Below are positions 47,009 to 63,439 of a stretch of DNA of 64,000 nt, one piece after another. The notes under the pieces are model-generated. The model searched no databases and had not been told where the DNA came from. It saw nothing but the letters and a program-made list of their open reading frames with translations. Made by a program: the position numbers and the translations under genes. Position 1 is the stretch's first letter, and each line of letters opens with the position of its first letter. Location: positions 3,787,042 to 3,851,041 of the forward strand of contig NZ_AP027732.1 in the NCBI RefSeq assembly GCF_030296615.1. The letters run 5' to 3'. The DNA comes from Frondihabitans sucicola. GTDB taxonomy: Bacteria > Actinomycetota > Actinomycetes > Actinomycetales > Microbacteriaceae.

Positions 47009-47668
47009 CTACCGGGCGCCCAGCACGATCTCCGCGACCTCGACGATCGAGTCGACCACGTGGATCGCACCGGCCTCTTCGAGCACCGTGACCGGCGCGT
47101 ACCCGCCGCGGACGGCGATCGGCACGTAACCGGCCGCGACCGCCGAGCGCATGTCGTACGCGGTGTCGCCGACGTAGAACGCGCGTCGGCGTCGCCCGCG
47201 GTGGCCGGTCAGAGCGGCGACCTTGTCGGCGACCGGAGCTTCGACGGAGTCGAACAGCCGCGGCACTCCCAGCGACGAGAGGTCGAACTCGACGGCCGCC
47301 CGGGCCGCAGCCGAGACGACACCGAGCCAGACCCCCGCGGCAGACAGGGCCGAAAGGGCCGGTGCCGTGCCCGCTCGGAGGCTCGTCCGGTGGGCCGCCA
47401 TGTAGCAGTTCCAGTCGTCCTCGGCCTGCCCGAGGAGAGGCGACGGTACACCGAGGTCTCGGAACATCTCCCCCATCGGCAGCCGGAACGTCGCCGGGAA
47501 GTCGGCCCTCGACACCTCCGGCAGGCCCTGTCGCACCAGCGCCGCACCGAGGGCCTCCCGGGCCCGGTCGTCGTCGGTCACGACGGTGCCGTTCCAGTCG
47601 AACAGCACCATCGCCTCCGAGCCCCCGACCTCGAGCGGATCGGGGCGTGTCCGGTCCACGACCGTCAC
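47009..47668 (-). CDS. HAD-superfamily hydrolase
   Basis: A 219-residue HAD phosphatase-like protein. Motif I is LFDWNGTVV: the nucleophile Asp is present but the usual second Asp is Asn, a variant seen in some actinobacterial HAD proteins. Motif II Ser is in GVVSAAA, motif III Lys in VADKVAAL and motif IV in YVGDTAYDM. GTG 47668 overlaps the stop of the ABC ATPase (GTGA). As last gene of the RpiR operon it probably acts on the imported substrate, perhaps a sugar phosphate. Confidence 0.88.
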   Translation of the reverse strand: MTVVDRTRPDPLEVGGSEAMVLFDWNGTVVTDDDRAREALGAALVRQGLPEVSRADFPATFRLPMGEMFRDLGVPSPLLGQAEDDWNCYMAAHRTSLRAGTAPALSALSAAGVWLGVVSAAARAAVEFDLSSLGVPRLFDSVEAPVADKVAALTGHRGRRRRAFYVGDTAYDMRSAVAAGYVPIAVRGGYAPVTVLEEAGAIHVVDSIVEVAEIVLGAR

Positions 47669-48774
47669 GCGGCGACCACCGAGGTCGCCTGCACCGAGAG
47701 GCCGGACGACATCGCGTCGCCGAGCCGCAGGCCCGAACCTCGCGAGTAGACGTGCACGTCGCCGGCTGCGGCACCGACCGTCACCGTCTCGCCGATCCGC
47801 GGGGTGCGGTCGAGGCTGCTGCGGAACGCCACGGCCGCCCCGGACGGCGTCACCACCTGCACGACGCGGTCGGCTCCCGTCGGCTCGACGAGCGCGACTC
47901 GCCCCGACAGGCACCAGGCCGAAGGATCCGGGTCGAGTCGCAGGTGCTCCGGTCTGACCCCCACCGTGAGCTGCCCCGCGACCGAAGAGGCCGATCCGCG
48001 CACGCTGCCGAAGGCGCTGTGGCCACCGGCGTCGTCGACATCGAGCAGGTTCATCGGCGGAGTGCCGATGAAGGAGGCGACGAAGAGCGAGGCGGGTGCC
48101 GCATAGAGCTCGTCCGGCGTGCCGACCTGCTCGAGTCGCCCGTGGTTGATCACGGCGATGCGATCCGCCATCGCCATCGCGTCGAGCTGGTCGTGCGTGA
48201 CGTTGATCCCGGTCGCTCCGATCGAGCGCAGCAGCGAGGCGATCTCCAGCCGGAGCACCGCGTGCAGTTGCGCGTCGAGGCCCGAGAGGGGCTCGTCCAG
48301 CAGCACGATGCCGCTCTTGCGCGCGAGCGCCCTGGCCAGCGCGATGCGCTGTCGCTGCCCGCCCGACATCTCCTTCGGCTTGCGCTCGAGCAGCGCCTCC
48401 ACCTGCATCCGCCGCGCGATGTCGGTCGCGCGAGCGGCCGCCTCCTGCTTCGAGAGTCCGAGCCCGTGCCGCAGCCCCAAGGTGATGTTCTCGCGAGCCG
48501 TGAGGTGCGGGTAGAGCGCGAAGTGCTGGAACACGATGGCCGCATCGCGCTCGTGCGGCGCCACGCCGTCCTGGTCGACGCCGCTGAAGCGGACGCTGCC
48601 GGCGTCCTGGTCCTCGAGCCCCGCGACGATCCTGAGCAGGGTCGATTTTCCGGAACCCGACGGCCCCAGGATCGCGACGTTCTCGCCGTCGCCGACGGTC
48701 AGGTCGACGCCGTCCAACGCGATCACGCCCCCGGCGTAGCTCTTACGGATTCCGTGCAGTTCGACGGTTGCCAC
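47665..48774 (-). CDS. MsiK/UgpC-type sugar importer ATPase
   Basis: A 369-residue CUT1 importer ATPase: Walker [11 protein letters not shown]-loop FQHFALYPH, signature MSGGQRQRIALARAL, Walker B IVLLDEPLSGLD, H-loop VTHDQLDA, followed by a C-terminal TOBE/regulatory domain (VGVRPEHLRL). GTG start 48774. It is the only CUT1 ATPase in this window and sits in the same operon as its binding protein and permeases. It may also serve the other two importers, which lack an ATPase gene. Confidence 0.94.
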   Translation of the reverse strand: MATVELHGIRKSYAGGVIALDGVDLTVGDGENVAILGPSGSGKSTLLRIVAGLEDQDAGSVRFSGVDQDGVAPHERDAAIVFQHFALYPHLTARENITLGLRHGLGLSKQEAAARATDIARRMQVEALLERKPKEMSGGQRQRIALARALARKSGIVLLDEPLSGLDAQLHAVLRLEIASLLRSIGATGINVTHDQLDAMAMADRIAVINHGRLEQVGTPDELYAAPASLFVASFIGTPPMNLLDVDDAGGHSAFGSVRGSASSVAGQLTVGVRPEHLRLDPDPSAWCLSGRVALVEPTGADRVVQVVTPSGAAVAFRSSLDRTPRIGETVTVGAAAGDVHVYSRGSGLRLGDAMSSGLSVQATSVVAA

Positions 48775-48778
48775 GGCG

Positions 48779-50094
48779 CTACTCCTTCCCGACGATGGCG
48801 TCGATCGACGTCACGGTCTGCTTGACGGTCTGAGCCGTGTCGGAGCCCGACTGCACTTTCTGCGCCATGGTCTTGATGAGGTCGTTCACCTGCGACGTGT
48901 CCTTCCCGTCGAATCCACCCCAGGGCGAGAGCTTCTTGTCGTAGCTCCACGCGTAGGTGAGCTGCTTCGTCGCGGAGGACGACGACAGGAGCTGCTTCCC
49001 GGCGGTTTGGTCGACCGGGATATAGCTGTACGACGTGCCACTGGCCGCCGCGGAACCGGCGGGCGAGAGGAGGTCGGCCACCAGAGCGTTCGAGAACGCC
49101 GCGGCGCACGACTTCTGGCTCAGGACGATCCAGCCGTTGCCGCCGGCGGGCAGCGCACCCCGGGCGGTGCCGGTGAGACTCGGCAGATCGACGGCGTCCC
49201 AATCGAACTTCGATCCGACCGCCTTCTGGATGGAGGCGATGACCGACGTCGTGTAGACGAGGAACGGCGTCTTGCCCGCCTCGAACGAGGCCATGGCGTC
49301 GAGGCTCCCGATGCCCTGCTCGAGGTTCTGCTTCTTGAGGTCCTGCCAGATGGAGAGCGCCTTGACTCCCGTCTTCGAGCCGAAGCCGGCGGAGCCGTCC
49401 TTGCTGACGAAGGTCCCGCCCGACCCCTGGACGAACGCCTGCGAGAACCAGTCCGAGAGGCTGTCGGTCGGAATGCTCACCGACGGCTTGCCGGTGCTCT
49501 TCGTCACGAGGGCCGCCGCTTCGACGAGATCCGCTTCCGATCTGATGTCGGACGCCTTGCCACCCCCGCAGCCGTCAACGCCTTCTGGTTGACGAGGAGC
49601 ACGGGTGCCGAGATCTGCGACGGGGCCGCGTAGACGGTGCCGTCGACGGTTCCGGCGGTGAGGAACTGCTTCTGGTAGGTCGAGTCGAGCGCGTCGACGT
49701 CGATCGGGGCGGGCTTGTAGGTGTCGACCCAGAACTTGAGCTGTCCGAGGCCGGTCATGATGACGTCGGGGCGCTTGCCGACGGCGATGTCGCCGACGAT
49801 GGTCTTGGTCAGGTCGCCGTAGTCGGCTGTCGACTGCGGGGTGGCGTTGACCGTCAGCCCGGGATACTTCTTCGTGAGGGCCGCGACGGCGACCTTCATC
49901 TGCTCGGAGGCCTGCAGACCGAACGTGACGTTCAACGTGGTCTTCGCCGGTGAGCAGCGTGCGATGTCGGCGGCCGAGGCGACCGTGGATCCGGAGCCCG
50001 GGCTGGCTGCGGAGGAGGCCGAGCAGCCGGTCAGGGCGAGGCTGCCGGCCGCGAGGACGCCTGCCGCGGCGACGATCTTCTTCGAAAAACGCAT
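48779..50094 (-). pseudogene. sugar-binding lipoprotein, one frameshift
   Basis: The binding lipoprotein of the RpiR-linked importer. Lipobox LTGC places the lipidated Cys at residue 24, followed by a Ser-rich linker and a two-lobed CUT1 binding domain. The break near 49566 is in five C (plus strand); six would link NQKALTAAGG to KASDIRSEADLVEAAALV and give 438 residues. GGAG is seven bases before ATG 50094. Located after the permeases, unlike the usual order. Confidence 0.87.
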
Positions 50095-50153
50095 GGGGGT
50101 GTCTCCAAAAGGGGTGAGTGAGAGGTGGGGTGGAGGGGAGGAAGAAAGAGGAC

Positions 50154-50972
50154 TCAGCCGGGGATCTCGGCGCCGCTCATGCCCTGCACGAACCGGCGTT
50201 GCGCGACGAGGAACAGGATCACGACGGGCGCCGTGACGATGACCGCTCCGGCGGCCAGCGCGGGGTAGTCGAACCCGGTGTCGCCCTGCTGGAAGATCGC
50301 CAGCGCGAGAGGCGGGGTGATGGTCGAGGGACTCCTCGCGATGAGGAGGGGCCACATGTAGTCGTTCCAGTGTGTGAAGACGGAGAACACGCTGAAGGCC
50401 GCGATTCCGGGGCCGGCCATCGGGACGACCACGCGGCGGAGCGTCTGGAAATGCCCCAGCCCGTCGGTGCGGGCCGCTTCCAGGAGGCCGTCGGGGATCG
50501 ACATCATCTGCTGGCGCAGCAGGAAGATCCCGAACGCGCTCGTCATGAACGGCACCACCAGGCCGGGCAGGCTGTCGGCGAGGCCCGCGAGATTCACCCC
50601 GATGAAGAGCGGGATGAGCGTCACCTGCGTCGGCACCAGGAGGCAGCCGAGCACGACGCCGAGGGCGACGTTCCGACCGCGAAACGGCACCTTGGCCAGG
50701 ACGTACGCGGCGGGGACGCAGGTGACGAGCTGGAGTAGCACGATCGAGAGGGTGACGATGATCCCCGTCGCCACCGACTGACCGAGGTCCGCCTTCGTCC
50801 AGGCCCGGGCGAAATTGCCGAAGTCGAAGCTGGAGAGCCAGAACCGGCCGCTCGCGACGTCCGCGGCGGGAGCGAGCGACGTGCGGACCATCCAGACGAA
50901 CGGGAAGAGGGAGACGACCACGGCGACGGCGATCAGGATCCAGCGCGACGCGTGCAGAACACGGGCGTTCAT
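50154..50972 (-). CDS. sugar ABC importer permease (MalG type)
   Basis: A 272-residue CUT1 permease, six helices, EAA loop EAARTDGLGHFQTLRRVVVPM. Start ATG 50972 overlaps the stop of the partner permease (4 nt). A 59-nt gap separates it from the binding-protein gene. Frame intact. Confidence 0.94.
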   Translation of the reverse strand: MNARVLHASRWILIAVAVVVSLFPFVWMVRTSLAPAADVASGRFWLSSFDFGNFARAWTKADLGQSVATGIIVTLSIVLLQLVTCVPAAYVLAKVPFRGRNVALGVVLGCLLVPTQVTLIPLFIGVNLAGLADSLPGLVVPFMTSAFGIFLLRQQMMSIPDGLLEAARTDGLGHFQTLRRVVVPMAGPGIAAFSVFSVFTHWNDYMWPLLIARSPSTITPPLALAIFQQGDTGFDYPALAAGAVIVTAPVVILFLVAQRRFVQGMSGAEIPG

Positions 50973-51925
50973 CGCGCGCTCCCGGCCAGGACTCGGCGCT
51001 GGAGCAGACCGATGCCGACCAGCACGACGAGCAGGAGGAACGACAGCGCCGAGGCCGAACCGAGGTCGTAGTAGCTGAAGCCCAGCTTCCACGTCTCGGT
51101 GAGAATCGTCTCGCTGGACCCCTGCGGGCCGCCCTCGGTCATCACGTTGATGGTGTCGAACACCTGGACCGAGCCCAGGATCGTCACGACGCTGGCGAAC
51201 ACGACGGTCGGCTTCATGATCGGCAGGGTCAGTCGAGTGAGCTTGGCGAACCCGCGGATCCCCTCGGCGCGAGCGGCCTCGTTGATGGTGCCGGGCACCG
51301 TCGCGAAGCCGGCGAAGAAGATCATCATGGCGAAGGACGCCGCGCGCCAGACGCCCACCAGCGCCACCGTCACGAGCGAGGTGCTCGTGTCGCCGAGCCA
51401 GTTGACGCTGCCGACGCCCACGATGCCGAGCAGCTGATTCACGACGCCGCCCTGGAAAGCGAAGATGTAGTCGAAGACCACCGCCATGGCGACGAGGTTG
51501 GCGGTCAGCGGCAGGAACAGAGCGGTGCGGATCAGCGCCCGCCCCCGCGTCACGGACTCGGCCAGCAGCGCGAGACCCAGGCCGATCACGAGGCTGGGGA
51601 TGATCGTGATCACGGAGTAGAACACCGTGTTGCCGATGGCCTGCTGAACCGTCGGATCGGTCAGGACGCGCGAGAAGTTCGCGAAGCCGACGAAGCCCCA
51701 GGAGCCTCCCGCGAGCGGGATCGAGAAGAAGCTGCCGATCAGCGACAGCACGGCCGGTGCCACGACGAAGACGGTGATGCAGAGGCCGGCGGGCAGGAGG
51801 AACAGGATCGGCACGAGGGGCGAGCGACCCCGGTTCCGGCGACGGACGGTCCGAACCGGCGGCTCCCCGAGCGAGGGTGCGGCAGCCCGCGGCGGTGCCG
51901 ACAGCTCCGTCTCGGTGGCCGTCAC
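50969..51925 (-). CDS. sugar ABC importer permease (MalF type)
   Basis: A 318-residue CUT1 permease partner, six helices, with EAARAEGIRGFAKLTRLTLPI as its EAA motif. A 40-residue basic cytoplasmic N-terminus precedes helix 1. GTG start 51925 overlaps the stop of the metallophosphoesterase (GTGA), so translation of the importer is coupled to that enzyme, which implies a shared substrate. Confidence 0.93.
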   Translation of the reverse strand: MTATETELSAPPRAAAPSLGEPPVRTVRRRNRGRSPLVPILFLLPAGLCITVFVVAPAVLSLIGSFFSIPLAGGSWGFVGFANFSRVLTDPTVQQAIGNTVFYSVITIIPSLVIGLGLALLAESVTRGRALIRTALFLPLTANLVAMAVVFDYIFAFQGGVVNQLLGIVGVGSVNWLGDTSTSLVTVALVGVWRAASFAMMIFFAGFATVPGTINEAARAEGIRGFAKLTRLTLPIMKPTVVFASVVTILGSVQVFDTINVMTEGGPQGSSETILTETWKLGFSYYDLGSASALSFLLLVVLVGIGLLQRRVLAGSAR

Positions 51926-54138
51926 GAGACGACCCCCTGCAGTGTCGCGCTCGGGGAGCGCACGGCTCCCCGGCGACCGCCGACGAGAGCGCGATGACGT
52001 TGCCGTCGACGCCCACGGCGAGCAGCCGCTCGACGCCCCGGGAGTCCGTGGTGTGCAGCAGCCCGGCCGCGATCGACGACGCCAGCTGCGTCGTCCCGAG
52101 CTCGGCCCCCTCCAGGGAGAACCGCCGGATCACGCCGTCCAGGCCGGGCAGGACGAGGCTCGTCGCCGACGAGGCTCGGCGGTGCGATCACGGGGTGCGG
52201 CGTCTTGGTGTACGACGCCATCGGGAACGGGGCGTCGCCGGTGATGTCCGCGTTCCAGAGCGTCTCTCCCGTCGTCCTGTCCAGCATCCTGATGCCCCTG
52301 CCGGTGACGGTGACCACATAGCCGAGATCGGTGACGAGCGGCGTCGCGGGGCTGAAGCCGCCTTCGTGCGGCTGGACCCAGCGGGTGCGACCCGTGGCGC
52401 GGTCGACGACGGTGGTGTGGCCGTGGGCCGGCATCAGGACGGCGTCCGTCGCCGGATCGAAGGCGGCGGTTCCCATGATCAGCAGGCGCTTGAGCTCGAA
52501 GAACGTGTCGGTCGCCTGCGGCTCGCGTTCCCAGACCGACTCGCCGGTGCGAGCGTCGAGGCCGATCGGACTGGCGGGTGTCGGCCAGAAGCCCATCACC
52601 AGCAGCTCGTCGACGATCAGCGGTGCCGCGTGGTTGACGAGGTTGTGGTGCGGGCTGAGGTCGGTCCGACGCCAGATCACCTCGCCGGTCGCGACGTCGA
52701 CGGCGCGGAGGTCGGACTGGTCGCCGAGGTAGACCATGCCCGAGGCCACCGTCGGGGCGCCCCAGGCGAAACGGCGCAGCGGGTCGGACGACGGAAGACG
52801 CCAGACGACCTCGCCCGAGCGCGCATCGAGGGCGGTCAGGTCGCCCGAGACCTCGGCGGCGAGGACGACGTCGCCGGCCGGAGCGGGGGTCGTCTTGACG
52901 GCGCTGGAGGTCGGAGTGCGCCAGAGCAGCTCCCCGGTGGCCAGGTCGAACGCTTCGACGCTCCCGGCCGCTCGATCCTCGATCTGGCCGCCGGCGAAGA
53001 CGACGTCTCCCTGAACACTGACGCGCTGCCGATGACCGGCTCCGGCGAGCCCGGCCTGCCAGAGGACATGCTCGTCGGTCGACGTCCCCGTCGACGCGGC
53101 GAAGGTCGAACGACTCACGTCGGTGAGGGCGCTCGGGGCCGGCACCGACAGCAGCGTCTGCGTCTTCATCGTGATCCTGCTGCCGTCCCAGGTGACCCGC
53201 CGGAATGCCGGCGGCGAGTAGTCGAGGCTGGCGAAGAAGCTCGTCGGGCTGTTGACGTGCAGGGTTCCGTCGACCTCGACGACGCGGCTGGTGTGCCAGT
53301 GCCCGGAGAACGCCGCGACCGGCCGCCACGGCAGCTCGTCGACGATGGAGAAGTTGGGTTGGTCGTGGAAGAGCAGGATGTACGGACTCCCGACCTCGAG
53401 TCGGGCCAGGTCGGCTTTCACCCAGGCGTTCTGCGTCTCGTGGTCGAGACCGAGCTCGTGCGTGTGCCAGTCGAGGGCGACGACGTGCAGGCCCGCGACG
53501 TCGAAGCTGTACCAGCGCGGACCGAGGTAACGCTCGTAGAGCTCCGGGGTGCCCGTGTTGGTCAGGTAGTCGTTGCGGCTGACGAGGCTGCCGTGGTGAC
53601 CGTTCATGTGATCGTGGTTGCCGGGGATGACGTGCGTCGGCACCGGGCTCGACGCCAGCACCTCGACGTAGGCCTCGTACTCCTCGGCCAGGCCGTGGTC
53701 GACGAGATCACCGGTGATCATGATGCTCTGGGCTTCGGGGGCGAGCGCGTCCAGACGCGCGAGGAAGTCGGTGAGCTGCGCCGGCAGGCTGCCCTCGCGG
53801 TAGAGACCGAAGCCCTCGCCCTGACCGTCGAGGTAGCTCTGCACGGTCATGTGCGTGTCGGTGAGGTGCACGAACGTGTAGGGCAGCGACTGGGGCTCGG
53901 CGTCGAGGACGAAGACGATCTCGCCGTCGTCTTCGGGGGTGCGCTGCCACCACGGCGCCGCCGTGAAGCCGGTGGGACGGGTCAGGACGACGAAGGAGCC
54001 TTCGACGGCCTGGCGGAGGAGGGAGAACCGGCCGTCGTCGTCGGTGACCGTGTTCACGGCGCCGGTGGAGACGACGACGCGGGGCGCCGGGCTGCCGTCG
54101 CGGTACTCGACGCGACCGGTGAGGGTGTTTTCGGGCAT
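51922..54138 (-). pseudogene. metallophosphoesterase fused to PQQ-like propeller, two frameshifts
   Basis: Three parts: a carboxypeptidase-regulatory-like beta domain (about 1-85), a calcineurin-like phosphoesterase (about 86-300; metal ligands in LTDTHM, TGDLVDHG, PGNHDHMNG, LFHDQPN and FSGHWH) and a PQQ-like beta propeller (about 360-730; ALDARSGEVVWRLP and DLATGELLWRT repeats). No signal peptide, so it should be cytosolic although propellers of this type are usually exported. Breaks are near 52168, beside a short direct repeat, and near 51975 (four G; five fit). It overlaps the importer gene. Confidence 0.85.
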
Positions 54139-54167
54139 GGGAATCCTTAGGAAGGGTGCGGAGGGGG

Positions 54168-55073
54168 TCAGATGCGGTGCTCGATGAGCACGTCTTCGGT
54201 GAGGGCGAGGTGGGCGGTGCTCGTGGCACTGCGGCGGGAGACGCTGACGAAGAGGGCGTCGAGCACGGAGAGGTGCACGATCCTGGAGGCCATCGCCTCC
54301 ACGCGGTAGGCGGTCTCGGCGCTGCCGGCGACGACGCTGAGGTCGCTGAGCTCGGTGAGCGGCGAGCGGGAGAAGCTGGTCAGGGCGACGGTGGTCGCCC
54401 CGGCGGACTGGGCCGCGCGGGCCGTCGCCAAGGTCTCGAAGGTCGACCCGGTGTGGCTGATGGCGAAGAACACATCACCTGCGCCCATCATGCGCGCGGT
54501 GACGTGCTGCGTGTGGACGTCCGGGGCGAAGCTCGCGTCGATGCCCAGGGTGACCAGCCGGTAGGCGGTGTCGAGAGCGAGCGGCGCCGATGTGCCGACA
54601 GCGCCGAAGACGACGCGGCGGGCACCGATGAGGGCGTCGACGATGCGGTCGAGGGCTGCCGCGTCGAGGGTGCGCGACGCCTGCGACACGGCCCTGGCCG
54701 TCGCGTCCATGACCTTGTGCGCAACGTCGGACACGGTGTCGTCGGCTGTGATGTCGCCGAGAAGTCGCTGGTCGTTCGGGATGGACTCGCTCGCGAGCCG
54801 GATCTTGAGGTCTTGATAGCCGCGCAGTCCGACGCTGGCGCAGAGGCGCACGACGGTGGCCGGCGAGGTCTCGGCGAGGGCTGCCAGCTCGGAGACCGAG
54901 AGGTGGATCACGGCCATCGCATCGCGCAGGACGGCGTCGGCGACGCGCCGCTCGGCGGGCGAGAACGACGGCAGCGCGGCTCGGATCCGCTCCCGGATGC
55001 CGGTCGGAGCAGCGGGGGTGGACGACTCGGTCGATTCTGCCGGGACGAGCGTCGTTCCGGAACGATTTTTCAT
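54168..55073 (-). CDS. RpiR/MurR-family regulator
   Basis: A 301-residue RpiR-type regulator: N-terminal helix-turn-helix (about 30-105; SVSELAALAETSPATVVRLC) and a SIS sugar-phosphate-binding domain (about 130-270; VFGAVGTSAPLALDTAYRL, AISHTGSTFETLATA). SIS domains sense phosphosugars, so the inducer is probably a phosphorylated sugar or amino sugar. Start ATG 55073. It is the first gene of the operon and 29 nt upstream of the phosphoesterase, so it probably also regulates itself. Confidence 0.93.
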   Translation of the reverse strand: MKNRSGTTLVPAESTESSTPAAPTGIRERIRAALPSFSPAERRVADAVLRDAMAVIHLSVSELAALAETSPATVVRLCASVGLRGYQDLKIRLASESIPNDQRLLGDITADDTVSDVAHKVMDATARAVSQASRTLDAAALDRIVDALIGARRVVFGAVGTSAPLALDTAYRLVTLGIDASFAPDVHTQHVTARMMGAGDVFFAISHTGSTFETLATARAAQSAGATTVALTSFSRSPLTELSDLSVVAGSAETAYRVEAMASRIVHLSVLDALFVSVSRRSATSTAHLALTEDVLIEHRI

Positions 55074-55138: not shown

Positions 55139-55165
55139 GTTTCATGACGAGCGAAATCCTGAAAC
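55139..55165 (-). promoter_or_regulatory. candidate RpiR operator
   Basis: GTTTCA (55139-55144) and TGAAAC (55160-55165) are inverted copies 15 bases apart, upstream of the RpiR gene in the divergent space. RpiR family sites are commonly TGAAA/TTTCA inverted repeats, so this fits, but it is short. Confidence 0.42.
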
Positions 55166-55232
55166 GAAATTCCAGGATCGCGACGGCTCGGGAGTGGTTT
55201 GCGATCCCGCTTTTTGCCGCCAGAATGAGGAC

Positions 55233-55978: not shown

Positions 55979-57966
55979 CTACTTCAGTTTCGCGATGGCC
56001 TTGAAGAACGCCGCTCCGCTCGGGGTTCCGACGCCGGTCTCGTCGTCGTAGCCCTTCTTCGAGTGGATCGTCGACGACTGGGTGTCGATCGTCTGAAGCT
56101 GGTACTTCAGGCCGTCCGTCTTGTCGAGGCCGTTCACGAAGTCGGTCCGCACCTGGTACACCGGCGACTTCGCGCTGGGAGCGACGATGTCGTGGAGTGC
56201 CGGGGTCGCGGCCAGCTGGTAGTACAGCGGGTTGGCGAAACCGAACTTCTTGTGAGCCGACTGCTCGGCCACGGCGAGGACGCCCGCCATCAGGGGCGAC
56301 GAGAGGCTCGTGCCGCCGATGCGGTACTGGTCCCAGTAGGTGCCGTCCGGGAACTCCTGCGTCTGACCGACGACCATGCCGGTGTTGGGGTCACCCGCCA
56401 TGGAGATGTCGGGCAGCGTCCTCATCGGGTCGGCCGTGCCGTACGCCTTCGAGATGGAGTCGGGGACGATCCCGCGCTGGTACCACGGCTGAGCGAACAG
56501 CTGGCTGGTACCACCGGTTCCGCCCGAGCTGTAGACGCCGGGGAGCGGCGACCAGGTGTTGCCGCTGAGCTGCGAGTAGGCGTTCTGCCAGCCGTATTCG
56601 CCGAGCCACTGGTCCTTGTTGCCGATCTGGACGCTCGTTCCGCCCACGCCGGTCACCAGGGGAAGGTCGGCGGGGAACCCGAGGGTCTTCGCCGCGAGGT
56701 CGGTGCCGCCGGCGGTTGCGTCGCCGTTGTCACCGGTGGAGAAGTTCACCGTGATGCCCGTGAGAGCCGCCTCGGTCGAGTACTGCGTGTAGAAGTCGAT
56801 GTACGACTGGCCGAGGTCGGCGAGGTCGTCGACTCCGTCCGACCACGAGTTGGTGATGATGTCGCCATAGTGGTTGTCGATCGACGCCGCCCAGGCCTCG
56901 TCGAGACCGGTCACGCAGTCGGCACCGCCGACGTAGACGACCTTCGCGCCCGGAGCCATGGCGTGCACGGCTTCGACGTCGAGTGTCTCTTCGCCGTACC
57001 AGCCGGAAGCTCCGCACAGGTCGGTGTTCGAGTAGCCGCTCGACGAGGGCGTGATCTGGCTGAACTGGCCGTTCTTGAACTGCGGCTGCCCGTGAACCTT
57101 GCTGTACTTCTGGGCGTCCTGGAGGATCGTCGGCGACGCGTACGCGTCGGTGATGACCACGGTCACGCCCTTGCCGTCGATGCCCTTCTTGAGCTGCGAC
57201 GAGACGCCGTAGGCGCCCTGCAGCTGCTGGGGGCCGTAGCCGCAGACCGCGTAGGGCTGCTTCTTGCCGCCCACGGCCGGCTGAGCGGTGGCCGTCTTCT
57301 GGCCGTAGTAGGCCGAGCAGGGCTGGACGCCCGTGCGCGAACCGACACCCGGTCCGGGTTCGGTGTCGGCCGGCTTCTTGAGCGTGCTCGCCTGGTCGAG
57401 GCCGACGACGCCGTTGACGGCGCCGACGATCTCGGCGGACGTGCCCGAGGGCAGCGACAGGTCGGTCGTGTTGGTCTGCACGGTCTTGCCCTGGTACGAG
57501 TACTTGGCGAGCGTCGTGCTGAAGGTCTTCTCGACCTGCGCCGTGGTACCGGAGGCCTTGACGTACTGACCGCTCGGCAGCGTCTGCCCGACGGCGAAGC
57601 CCTGCGACTTCAGCCAGCCCTGGACGGCCTTGACGTCAGACGCGGCGGGAGCGTAGCTCGCATTGAACTGCTTGTTCGTGAGGAACTTGCCGTACGACGC
57701 GCTGGACGGGTCGGAGACGGCCTGGACCTGCGCCTGGGCTGCTGCGGCGTTGCGCAGGTTCAGCAGGATCCCGAAGCTCACCTTGGTCGTGGACGCCTGG
57801 TTCGCGACCTTCTTCGCATGGCCCAGCCAATGGGGGCGCTGTTGGGTAACACGTGGTGCGCGGGAGCGGCGTTGGCCGGCGCGGACAAGCCGGTGAGACC
57901 GGCTAGGGCCGCGGCCGCCACTCCGGCGACGATGATGGGACGGGATCGGGATGTAGAACCACGCAC
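55979..57966 (-). pseudogene. secreted sedolisin (S53) protease, one frameshift
   Basis: A secreted S53 serine-carboxyl peptidase. GTG 57966 with GGAGG upstream starts a signal peptide ending near ANAAPA. A break near 57822 (GGG where GGGG fits) leads into the pro-domain (YGKFLTNKQFNASYAP), then the mature domain: Glu and Asp in GEETLDVEAVH, Asp in NSWSDGVDD, nucleophile Ser in GGTSLSSPLMAG. Corrected length is 662. Unlike the first S53 gene in this window it is clearly exported. Probably degrades extracellular protein at low pH, as known for the family. Confidence 0.88.
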
Positions 57967-60121: not shown

Positions 60122-61117
60122 TCAGCCCTTGACCGCGCCACCGAGGCCGGCGGAGCGGAGGAAGACCCGCTGGAAGACGAGGAACAGCACCACGGGGATG
60201 AGCGTCGAGATGGCGAGGGCCGCCAGGAAGACGTCGAGCTCGGTGGTGGACTGGATGCTCGGCAGACGCACGGACAGCGGCTGGAGCGCAGGATTCGGCA
60301 GCACGAGCAGGGGCCAGAGGAAGTCCTTCCACGACGCGATGATGGCGAACACCGACACCACGCCGAGGATCGGCTTCGACATCGGCAGCACGATCGACCA
60401 GAACAGCCGGAAGGTCCCGGCGCCGTCGGTTCGCGCGGCCTCGAACACCTCGCGCGGCAGGCTGTCGAAGAACCGCTTGACCAGCAGGATGTTGAAGGCG
60501 TTCGCCCCCGCAGGCAGCCAGACGGCCCAGAACGTGTTGATCAGCGACGTGTGGAGGAGCGGCGGGTTCAGCACGGTCAGGTAGAGCGGCACCAGCAGCA
60601 CGATCGCGGGGACGAACAGGGTCGACAGCACGAGCGCTTCGACGACCCACGCGTACTTCGGCCGCAGAACGCTCAGCGCGTAGCCACCCGTGGTCGCGAC
60701 CAGCAGCTGGACGAACCAGGAGCCCGCCGCGATGATCACCGTGTTGCCGAAGTAGAGGTCGATGTGCACGGTCGACCAGGCCGTGGCCAGGTTCGCCCAG
60801 TCGATCCCGTGCGGAAACAGCGCCAGCGGCGTGCGCAGGGTGTCCTGCGTCGGGGTCACGGCCGACTTGGCGAGCCAGAGCATCGGGCCGAGACCCAGAA
60901 CGACGAGTCCCGCGAGCAGCAGCCCGTGGAGGACCCGGAGCGGGCGGCGGATGCGGGCGCGGCGCCAGTCGGCGACGCTGACGATCCCGCGATCCTGCTG
61001 CTCTTCGGGCTTCGACCGGCGGCGGGGCCGCCGGCCACCGAGGGCGACAGGGGTCTCGGTGGCGACGAGGGCGGCAGGATCCTGTGTCTCGGGCAGGGTG
61101 GGAGAGGTGAGGGTCAT
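60122..61117 (-). CDS. sugar ABC importer permease (MalG type)
   Basis: A 331-residue CUT1 permease with six helices, EAA motif EAARTDGAGTFRLFWSIVLPM and a long basic cytoplasmic N-terminus of about 65 residues. Start ATG 61117 overlaps the stop of the partner by one base (TGATG). Frame intact. No ATPase in the operon. Confidence 0.94.
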   Translation of the reverse strand: MTLTSPTLPETQDPAALVATETPVALGGRRPRRRSKPEEQQDRGIVSVADWRRARIRRPLRVLHGLLLAGLVVLGLGPMLWLAKSAVTPTQDTLRTPLALFPHGIDWANLATAWSTVHIDLYFGNTVIIAAGSWFVQLLVATTGGYALSVLRPKYAWVVEALVLSTLFVPAIVLLVPLYLTVLNPPLLHTSLINTFWAVWLPAGANAFNILLVKRFFDSLPREVFEAARTDGAGTFRLFWSIVLPMSKPILGVVSVFAIIASWKDFLWPLLVLPNPALQPLSVRLPSIQSTTELDVFLAALAISTLIPVVLFLVFQRVFLRSAGLGGAVKG

Positions 61118-62067
61118 CAGACGCTCCAGCGTTTCGTGAGGCGGAAGTACAGCACCGACAGGATCCCGAGTACGACGGCGAGCATGATGCTCAGGGCCGT
61201 CGCCGACCCGTAGTCACCGCCGGTCGAGTTCTGGAACGCGTACTGGTAGATCAGCAGCAGGACGGTAAGCGTGGCGTGGTTCGGGCCGCCGCCGGTGAAC
61301 AGGTAGGGCTCGAGGAACACCTGGGCGGTGCCGATGATCTGCAGGATCAGCGTGACGAACAGGATGCCGCGCAGCTGCGGCAGCGTCACGTGCCAGATCT
61401 TGCCCCAGACGCTCGCGCCGTCGACCTCGGCCGCGTCGTAGAGCTCGGGCGGCACACTGAGCAGCGCCGCGAGGTAGATGATCACGGTGCCGCCGGCCGC
61501 CGCCCAGGTGGCTTCGAGCACCAGCGAGGGCATCGCCGTCCCGGCGTTCTGGAGCCACGGCTGGGGCGGGATCCCCACCCAGCCGAGAATGGTGTTGAAC
61601 ACACCGGTGGCGCTCCCGTCGTAGAAGAACTTCCAGAGCAGGACGCTGACCACCGGCGGGACGACGACCGGGAGGTAGGCGAGGGCCGAGTACAGGCCCT
61701 TGGCCTTGCGGACCTCGCTCATCAGGACGGCCATGATCAGCGGGAGCGGATAGCCGAAGATCAGCGCCAGGACGGCGAACCAGATGGTGTTGACGATCGC
61801 CGTCCCGAGCAGCGGGTCGTGCAGCACGTGGGAGAAGTTCGCCCAGCCGACGAAGACCGGTGCGGTCACCAGGTTCGTCGTCTGCACGCTCATGACGGCA
61901 GCGCGGATGATCGGCCACCACGAGAACAGGCCGAAGACCAGCAGCAGGGGCAGGAGGAACACGAGGTTGCCGAGGCCTCCGCCGCGCAGCCACGTCACGG
62001 GTGTCCTGCGCCTGGCGGCCGACCTGGTCGGCGTCGCCGTCGACGGCCTGTTCTCGAGGGTGGTCAT
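61117..62067 (-). CDS. sugar ABC importer permease (MalF type)
   Basis: A 316-residue CUT1 permease, six helices, EAA-type loop DAAEVDGASVWGKIWHVTLPQ. It follows the binding-protein gene by 4 nt and the MalG-type gene overlaps it. Start ATG 62067. Confidence 0.94.
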   Translation of the reverse strand: MTTLENRPSTATPTRSAARRRTPVTWLRGGGLGNLVFLLPLLLVFGLFSWWPIIRAAVMSVQTTNLVTAPVFVGWANFSHVLHDPLLGTAIVNTIWFAVLALIFGYPLPLIMAVLMSEVRKAKGLYSALAYLPVVVPPVVSVLLWKFFYDGSATGVFNTILGWVGIPPQPWLQNAGTAMPSLVLEATWAAAGGTVIIYLAALLSVPPELYDAAEVDGASVWGKIWHVTLPQLRGILFVTLILQIIGTAQVFLEPYLFTGGGPNHATLTVLLLIYQYAFQNSTGGDYGSATALSIMLAVVLGILSVLYFRLTKRWSV

Positions 62068-62071
62068 GCGA

Positions 62072-63439
62072 TCACTTGTCCAGGATCTGCTGGATCGACG
62101 TGTTCGCCTGCGACAGCAGCTGGTCGACGTTCGCGTTCTTGTCGGTCAGCACCGCCTGCACGACCGGGTCGAGAGCACCGTAGAGCGCCTGCGTCTGCGA
62201 GGCCGGCTCGGGGATGATCGCCTGGTCGAACTCCTGCGAGACGTACGGCTTCATCTGGTCGACGGGAACGTTGACGTAGCTCTTGATCCAGTCCTGCGTC
62301 TCCTTGTACGTCTTCTGGTCGAAGACGGGCACCTGCGGTGCGCCGACCGGCTGCTGCGAGGCGGCCTGGGTCTTTGCGTCGCGGACGGCGTCGCTCTTGG
62401 TGATCAGTGTCGACATGTAGTAGAAGTCGATCCACTTGACGCTGGCCTTCTTGGCCGCGTCGTCCGCCTTCGCGCTGACGACGGCGAGCGTGCCGCCGCC
62501 GAGAGCCCCGGCGTCCTTGCCCTCGAGGGGGACGACGGTCTCGCCGTAATCGGCCGGCTTGATGGCGTTCTGCGAGACGAGCGAGCCGTAGTTGCCGCCG
62601 CCCGAGATGTACATGCCGATCTTGCCCGCGGCGAAGTCCTGGTTGATGCCGTTCCAGTCGTAGAGGAAGTTGCCTCCCATCGAGTCGTCGGTCCAGCGCA
62701 TCGTCTTGAGGTCGGTGAGGGCCTTCTTGAACGGTTTGGTGTCGACGGTGGCGGTGAACTTCTTGCCGCTCTTCGTCTCGGCCCGGCCGCCCAGCGCGTA
62801 GGCGGCGCTGGTGAGGATCCAGCCGCCGGTGTTCGACTGCGTCATCGTGGCGTAGCCGGCCTCACCGGTCTTGTCGGCGATGGCCTTGGCGTCGGAGCGG
62901 ACCTCGGCCCAGGTGGTCGGCGGCTTGTCGGGGTCGAGACCCGCCTTGGTGAACAGGGTGCGGTTGTAGTGGAGCGCCTGGCCGTACGCGGCGATCGGGA
63001 CGGCCTGAATGTTGCCGGAGGCGTCCTCGCCGTTCTTGACGACGGCGGGGTTGAACTTCGACGCGTAGGGAAGGGCCTTGACGAGCGACGAGATGTCGGC
63101 GACCTGCTTCTGCTCGATGAGCGAGCGACCGTCGGTGAACGGGATCGTGAACACGTCCGGAAGCGTGCCGCCGGCGAGCTCGGCCGAGAAGGTGGTGCCC
63201 GTCCAGGTGTACTCGCGGCTCTTCACCGTGATGGTGGGGTTGGCCTTCTCGAAGAGCTTGACCTGCGCGTTGAACGCGTCCTGCGCGGGCTTCTTCAGGC
63301 CCGCGTCGATCGCGACGACGATTGTCGTCTTGCCGTGGGCGGACGACCCGCTCGTGGACGACGACGCGCACCCGGAGAGGGTGCCGACCGCCGCGAACAG
63401 CACGGTGGCCGCTGCGATCGCTTTGAGGGATGACTTCAT
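62072..63439 (-). CDS. sugar-binding lipoprotein
   Basis: A 455-residue CUT1 binding lipoprotein. Lipobox LSGC with Cys24, then a Ser/Gly linker and the two-lobed domain (AFNAQVKLFEKANPTITV; WTDDSMGGNFLYDWNGINQDFAAGKIGMYISGGG in the cleft region, cited in part). Frame intact, unlike the two other binding proteins here. The GH13 gene upstream suggests alpha-glucosides or maltodextrins as cargo. Start ATG 63439. Confidence 0.93.
   Translation of the reverse strand: MKSSLKAIAAATVLFAAVGTLSGCASSSTSGSSAHGKTTIVVAIDAGLKKPAQDAFNAQVKLFEKANPTITVKSREYTWTGTTFSAELAGGTLPDVFTIPFTDGRSLIEQKQVADISSLVKALPYASKFNPAVVKNGEDASGNIQAVPIAAYGQALHYNRTLFTKAGLDPDKPPTTWAEVRSDAKAIADKTGEAGYATMTQSNTGGWILTSAAYALGGRAETKSGKKFTATVDTKPFKKALTDLKTMRWTDDSMGGNFLYDWNGINQDFAAGKIGMYISGGGNYGSLVSQNAIKPADYGETVVPLEGKDAGALGGGTLAVVSAKADDAAKKASVKWIDFYYMSTLITKSDAVRDAKTQAASQQPVGAPQVPVFDQKTYKETQDWIKSYVNVPVDQMKPYVSQEFDQAIIPEPASQTQALYGALDPVVQAVLTDKNANVDQLLSQANTSIQQILDK

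Follow-up and report, generated by a model that had tools for sequence, protein, structure and literature searches.

The window analysed here, a 64,000-nucleotide stretch of the Frondihabitans sucicola genome (contig NZ_AP027732.1, positions 3,787,042 to 3,851,041), holds a seven-gene operon at 47009-55073, all on the minus strand and led by the gene for an RpiR-type regulator. Positions without a locus or contig label are those of the window. In order, the genes encode the regulator (54168..55073; HTH_6 65 bits and SIS 60 bits, both above their cut-offs), a phosphoesterase fused to a propeller (51922..54138; Metallophos 46.2 bits, PQQ_2 140.7 bits), two BPD_transp_1 permeases, the first UgpA-like (50969..51925) and the second UgpE-like (50154..50972), a binding lipoprotein with the lipobox LTGC (48779..50094), a UgpC-like ATPase with ABC_tran and TOBE_2 domains (47665..48774), and a HAD hydrolase with the motif I FDWNGT (47009..47668; HAD_2 50.7 bits against a cut-off of 23.8). 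The permeases and the ATPase were assigned with Pfam and curated models, and the lipoprotein, which lies in two frames, by an SBP_bac_1 match of 40.9 bits to its N-terminal piece and by alignment with ten relatives. A palindromic candidate operator for the regulator was found by motif search upstream of rpiR, at 55159..55175.

The gene set, its order and its tight packing agree with an earlier note made from the letters of this stretch. The regulator and phosphoesterase genes are separated by 29 bases, the second permease and the lipoprotein by 59, and the lipoprotein and the ATPase by 4, while the two permease genes overlap by 4 bases, as do those of the ATPase and the HAD. Every gene scored above a Pfam cut-off, the first permease barely (26.6 versus 26.4 bits); taken alone, the lipoprotein's C-terminal piece had no Pfam match, and the phosphoesterase N-terminus scored too low for MetallophosN (28.8 bits, cut-off 35.6). 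The same note called the phosphoesterase cytosolic, which is reasonable given that its N-terminus has no hydrophobic stretch.

Two of the genes contain frame changes that the note did not report, near 49,555 in the lipoprotein gene and near 52,150 in the phosphoesterase gene, whose C-terminal part continues in a frame opening at 52133. Most relatives have unbroken copies of both genes, L021 being an exception. Assembly completeness is 92.18%, versus 99-100% in six congeners. The genome has 54 SBP_bac_1 matches, a figure partly inflated by split genes, versus 18-32 in the same six congeners, and five further SBP_bac_1 genes among them appear as two adjacent partial matches each (C1: 194752-195602, 1322199-1323061, 2762153-2762823, 3685008-3685801 and 4169671-4170518; one of the five was inspected). 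The low completeness and these five split genes suggest many frame errors in the assembly, and on the same grounds the frame changes in the operon are probably sequence errors, real decay being the alternative. An earlier reading of the change in the phosphoesterase gene as a 16-base duplication was given up.

Conservation and distribution of the operon

With Herbiconiux queries, the seven genes were found in the same order on one strand in 20 of 24 CUT1-type loci, so the expectation, offered as a check in the earlier note, that the set stays together in other genomes is borne out. The exceptions are L015, a 3.5-kb contig with three of the seven genes; L065, where the HAD gene is on the opposite strand, before rpiR; L066, with six genes and no HAD found before the contig ends ~1.25 kb beyond the ATPase match; and L067, with six genes and an unrelated HAD of another type that has DWD. 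A scan of named genomes with short exact patterns, which returned 13 of 20 candidates and is not a census, gave 13 loci: Curtobacterium, Herbiconiux, three Cryobacterium, Arthrobacter, Mycetocola, Microbacterium album, Microbacteriaceae VKM Ac-2854, a Microbacteriaceae metagenome-assembled genome, Demequina and two Prescottella. The whole set was present in all 12 full-length named loci found through the fusion protein. The co-occurrence of the seven genes exceeds chance.

The full-length fusion is absent from all six other genomes of the genus, where one weak, propeller-only match was seen. Wider searches, again leaving the window's own genome aside, found it in 4 of 397 genomes at the family level (E<=1e-20), 4 of 393 at the class level (E<=1e-60) and 4 of 395 at the phylum level (E<=1e-30), the class and phylum samples overlapping and including non-CUT1 types. 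In the tree of the fusion protein, the window copy groups with Curtobacterium, Prescottella (Nocardiaceae) and G1308, a genome of Prescottella's family, with support of 100/99. Given that the tree joins the window with Prescottella and G1308, transfer between orders is likely.

Comparison of the flanks of ten loci and eleven window neighbours, made with a simple choice of open reading frames, found ATP-binding cassette (ABC) genes recurring in 3 loci and in 2, and a LysR-like pair in 2, but no other shared genes. Upstream of the operon in the window is a Pro-kumamolisin (S53-type peptidase) gene (55979-57781, minus strand), not a common neighbour in the ten compared loci. A second importer set, two permeases and an SBP_bac_1 protein, lies ~5 kb from the operon (60122-63439, minus strand). 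No title or abstract opening found in the literature describes the seven-gene set.

Conserved sites in the enzymes, the binding protein and the regulator

All 32 loci compared, including nine distant ones, keep the eight metal ligands of the phosphoesterase (D, H, D, N, H, H, H, H), which constitute the two-metal set D-H, D, N-H, H, H-H of class III, calcineurin-type enzymes. The nearest solved phosphoesterase is 2dxl/2zo9, entered as 'Phosphohydrolase' (E 1.7e-7), which we take to be GpdQ, a glycerophosphodiesterase; purple acid phosphatases come next (E 0.0052). The C-terminal part matches PQQ_2, and the predicted model (predicted local distance difference test score, pLDDT, 79.2; predicted template-modelling score 0.84) resembles BamB and other propellers, which filled the fold search such that it says nothing on the fold of the phosphoesterase domain. 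In plasmid records the fusion protein is annotated only as 'PQQ-binding-like beta-propeller repeat protein', and relatives also occur in Phocaeicola and haloarchaea. The HAD keeps FDWNGT in all 21 loci where it was found.

For the binding protein, published work provides a signature: in PMC12718374, two Tyr and two Ser (Tyr64, Ser143, Ser266 and Tyr342) are described as holding the phosphate in UgpB, in a glycerophosphocholine binder of M. tuberculosis and in a Thermus uridylyl-guanosine binder, and as missing from glucose binders. We placed these columns by alignment to E. coli UgpB, which has all four residues, and to the Thermus protein, the placement being inferred from motifs. The first, second and fourth columns are Tyr, Ser and Tyr in 23 of 23 loci, and the third is Thr in 19 and Ser in one, such that 20 of 23 loci have the full Tyr-Ser-Ser/Thr-Tyr set. 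Among 29 paralogues from the same genome, none has more than one of the four residues; this control, approximate owing to many gaps at the first column, some over-long frames and two identical rows, drew on 30 loci, the best of 54 matches, with one dropped for a reading frame on the wrong strand. The best sequence match in the PDB is the Thermus dinucleotide-binding protein (E 2.8e-9). These residue patterns support a binding protein that would grip a phosphate-bearing ligand. The rest of the importer falls short of the cut-offs of the Ugp models (UgpA 110.2 of 335, UgpE 102.7 of 297 and UgpC 351.4 of 432 bits).

With both HTH_6 and SIS above their cut-offs, the regulator belongs to the MurR/RpiR family, and all 23 loci compared share its SIS loop SH[TS]GST; the named types MurR, HexR and AlsR all scored below their NCBIfam cut-offs (for example, HexR 158.6 of 296). 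Motif search upstream of 20 of the 24 loci gave a palindrome with the consensus GTGAAACTAAGTTTCAC, 28-139 bases before the aligned rpiR start, with a total score of 241.5 versus 124-141 in 11 two-base block shuffles run with equal seeds. Because the method assigns a site to every locus and the loci are related to one another, we take the total score, not the number of sites, as the evidence; the sites of L030 (score 7.1) and L067 (score 4.5) are weak. The site at 55159..55175 is the sole match in the window with 9 of 10 core bases, and in the whole genome the exact TGAAACNNNATTYCA occurs once only, at this operon. Four sites have one mismatch, of which C1:195722 was set aside; it falls inside the start of another binding-protein gene.

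Relatives of the regulator and the enzyme in other settings

The regulator has matches at E<=1e-40 in 13 plasmid records, ten of which were inspected. A phosphoesterase gene lies near the RpiR relative in nine of these ten, counting the fusion enzyme and EEP-family genes (families were checked for ten of the plasmid enzymes). Four Thermus records have a GDPD near RpiR, three of them with HAD-IIA as well and two with CUT1 importer genes in the stretch, and three further Thermus records have HAD-IIA under the RpiR match. On the Rhizobium and Phyllobacterium plasmids, RpiR and a HAD occur together with a BMP-type ABC importer and with either one or two metallophosphoesterases (L115 6221-13649; L117 5275-14160). 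The Rhodococcus and Dietzia records have the fusion enzyme near RpiR, the Microbacterium paraoxydans plasmid has an EEP-family gene there, and the Pseudonocardia record has insertion sequences around RpiR and no phosphoesterase near it. In the M. paraoxydans plasmid (L114 1823-9773), a two-piece RpiR also heads a row of genes for a binding protein, a phosphatase of tyrosine type and a metallophosphoesterase; this row adjoins a second RpiR with its EEP-family gene.

Distant copies of the fusion protein, 28-36% identical to the Herbiconiux one, have other surroundings, which agree with the clades of the tree. G942 and G1343, two genomes of the same family, have the fusion next to an ABC importer of SBP_bac_6 type, with a PF12710 HAD after it. 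Among the best-named matches of the G942 importer are 2-aminoethylphosphonate models, none of which reaches its cut-off, and polyamine, iron and other models score nearly as well. For the binding protein of this importer the top match is 5t1p (E 2.7e-55), ahead of binders of iron and polyamines and one of pyridoxal phosphate. In G782 the fusion is preceded by an ABC ATPase of branched-chain type and followed by a Peripla_BP_6 protein, and the short contig of G868 has nothing telling around it.

In Rhodococcus NJ-530, Dietzia and G485, the fusion gene is divergent from MetE-like, YaaH-like, PhnY-like and PhnZ-like genes (L027 7465-15005; L028 7491-15005; L116 9344-16059), and we regard this cluster as a candidate phosphonate-ester pathway, partly plasmid-borne. 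L027 and L028 also include a 2-oxoglutarate oxygenase and RpiR, with weak half-sites of a kind similar to the operator between the divergent genes; no RpiR match was found in the stretch of G485 that was searched. G453 has the MetE/YaaH/PhnY/PhnZ-like set on another contig, and in G927, PhnI and PhnJ lie ~15-17 kb and an HD gene (PhnZ-like) ~12 kb from the fusion enzyme. The PhnZ score exceeds its cut-off of 214.6 in G485 (245.4), with Rhodococcus and Dietzia just below (213.6 and 212.4). Overall, 4 of 7 non-CUT1 genomes or records and 2 of 19 CUT1-type genomes have a PhnZ-like match, which exceeds the cut-off in one of the 26.

Proposed function and comparison with known systems

From the gene set, its conservation, the kept metal site, the kept phosphate-grip residues and the shared palindrome, we infer binding and catalytic activities, a regulatory effect and a ligand class that would make this a self-contained catabolic operon for a small phosphodiester, a reading we hold to be reasonably probable. 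The lipoprotein would capture the diester outside the cell by gripping its phosphate, the CUT1-type importer would carry it into the cell, and the cytosolic two-metal phosphoesterase would cleave it, the beta-propeller probably serving to recognize the substrate. The HAD would then remove the phosphate from the resulting monoester, and RpiR would sense this phosphomonoester through its SIS domain and control the operon through the palindrome that precedes rpiR. We favor a diester because the metal site and the phosphate grip are kept, because the nearest solved relatives are 2dxl/2zo9 for the enzyme and, by sequence, a dinucleotide binder for the lipoprotein, and because distant copies of the enzyme occur with another importer and HAD or with phosphonate genes. 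The phosphoesterase genes near RpiR relatives in nine of ten plasmid records also speak for it. In our judgement glycerophosphodiesters bearing unusual head groups come first among the candidate ligands, ahead of sugar phosphodiesters and, last, dinucleotides. The earlier note had suggested a phosphorylated sugar, a phosphodiester or a cell-wall fragment; a phosphate-bearing ligand and a diester-type enzyme gain support at the sequence level from the grip residues, the metal site and 2dxl/2zo9, the wall fragment gathered no evidence, and the link of distant fusion copies to phosphonate genes was not foreseen.

Several observations weigh against this proposal. The match to 2dxl/2zo9 spans only ~70 residues. 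Phosphatase HADs have a second Asp in motif I, and the operon HAD has Asn at this place (DWN in 21 of 21 loci); it may be a slow or unusual phosphatase, and it is the weakest step of the proposal. Three distant loci have Pro in the third grip column, and pairwise alignments, themselves weak, returned no counterpart to the Trp clamp of UgpB, whose region falls in a gap, or to its acidic glycerol contact, a Glu with no acidic match. Since these contacts lack counterparts, a phosphate ester other than glycerol phosphate would be expected, and glycerol phosphate itself is an unlikely ligand. The predicted model of the binding protein is middling (pLDDT 73.6), its VIA-align fold scores tie (UgpB Z 30.6, the glycerophosphocholine binder 30.5, maltose binders 30.1), and Foldseek places an uncharacterised binder and GacH, which binds acarbose/maltose, at the top, above the Thermus dinucleotide binder; because of the tie, fold ranking was left out of the choice of ligand. 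The count of nine in ten plasmid records covers relatives of the operon regulator only, and a control query with the genome's other RpiR matched 7 records. We know of no activity for any member of the operon.

Some of the same evidence could fit a pair of importer and phosphatase for a phosphomonoester such as a sugar phosphate, in which the phosphoesterase would act as a phosphatase or have another role and no diester would be involved. The grip residues bind the phosphate of a mono- or diester alike, as in UgpB (PMC12718374). RpiR/SIS proteins are named for phosphosugars, and the enzyme has its weak likeness to purple acid phosphatases. However, two phosphate-removing enzymes would be redundant, the nearest solved relatives of the enzyme (presumably GpdQ) and of the binding protein handle diesters, and the glycerol-phosphate contacts of UgpB are absent, so that we consider this explanation unlikely.

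We give a slightly lower probability to a phosphonate monoester as the ligand, from which the enzyme would free a phosphonate for other enzymes to recover the phosphorus. Its evidence comes from the copies, 28-31% identical, that Rhodococcus NJ-530, Dietzia and G485 carry in divergent orientation to the MetE-YaaH-PhnY-PhnZ-like genes, together with the PhnZ of G485 above its cut-off, the set of G453 and the PhnI and PhnJ of G927. Yet PhnZ exceeds the cut-off in none of the 19 CUT1-type genomes, where the two weaker matches are both from Prescottella and C-P (carbon-phosphorus) lyase was not searched for, and the operon has a HAD in place of PhnY/PhnZ. Least probable is an ordinary sugar importer beside unrelated housekeeping hydrolases, for which the tied maltose-binder fold scores and the missed Ugp cut-offs can be cited, given that the phosphate-grip residues are kept and not seen in own-genome paralogues, and that both hydrolases accompany the importer in 20 of 24 loci and are met again beside an importer of non-CUT1 type.

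Beyond the phosphodiester proposal for the window, we suggest tentatively, as a rather speculative extension, that the phosphoesterase-propeller forms the core shared by an unnamed family of hydrolases that act inside the cell on phosphodiesters and phosphonate esters, and whose partners (an importer and a second-step enzyme, often through an RpiR sensor) would be matched to the ester. In this equally tentative scheme, CUT1 and HAD would serve phosphodiesters, as in the window, other members would pair an SBP_bac_6-type importer with another HAD, and PhnY/PhnZ would serve phosphonate esters, for example polysaccharide-borne ones. If true, the second step would be swapped with the phosphorus chemistry in a modular system for scavenging organophosphorus esters. 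The proposals predict a route by which a set of actinobacteria would use organic phosphorus diesters, give a testable function to a fusion protein whose annotation in plasmid records names only its propeller, and provide candidates for phosphonate-ester breakdown, a process that a marine polysaccharide study postulates as a key step (PMC5649143).

Among known systems, the PhnY/PhnZ phosphonate oxidation clusters are related in that distant fusion enzymes and RpiR relatives belong to such clusters, but in the window operon a HAD is present and PhnY/PhnZ are missing. The Thermus uridylyl-guanosine binder (7c0f-7c1b) is the best solved match of the binding protein, with aligned Tyr, Ser and Tyr columns; identity over the fold is only ~21-22%, and in the window protein Gly stands opposite F79 and N81, residues that were mutated in those entries. 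The GpdQ-type (class III) phosphodiesterase 2dxl/2zo9/3d03, a name we presume for these entries, is the best solved match of the enzyme and shares its eight metal ligands, whereas the window enzyme adds an N-terminal domain and a C-terminal propeller of eight-bladed type. The agrocinopine acc operon serves nutrition on a sugar phosphodiester through import followed by intracellular cleavage. Xanthosan, compared here by description, is likewise a sugar phosphodiester imported and cleaved inside the cell by plant-associated bacteria, but XanT is TonB-dependent and XanP is a 2H phosphoesterase (PMC12807533). The window operon would work in a manner similar to these sugar-phosphodiester systems. 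A close parallel is ugpBAECQ of E. coli, where a CUT1 importer, a phosphate-gripping binding protein and a cytosolic phosphodiesterase are likewise encoded in one locus (ugpB, A, E, C and Q). Unlike ugp, the window operon includes a HAD and an RpiR regulator, has no GDPD-type UgpQ among its seven genes, its diesterase being the two-metal phosphoesterase-propeller, and lacks the Trp clamp and the acidic glycerol contact. With these differences and the Ugp cut-offs missed, it stands outside the Ugp systems proper, and it most likely works like ugp plus ugpQ, built from other parts.

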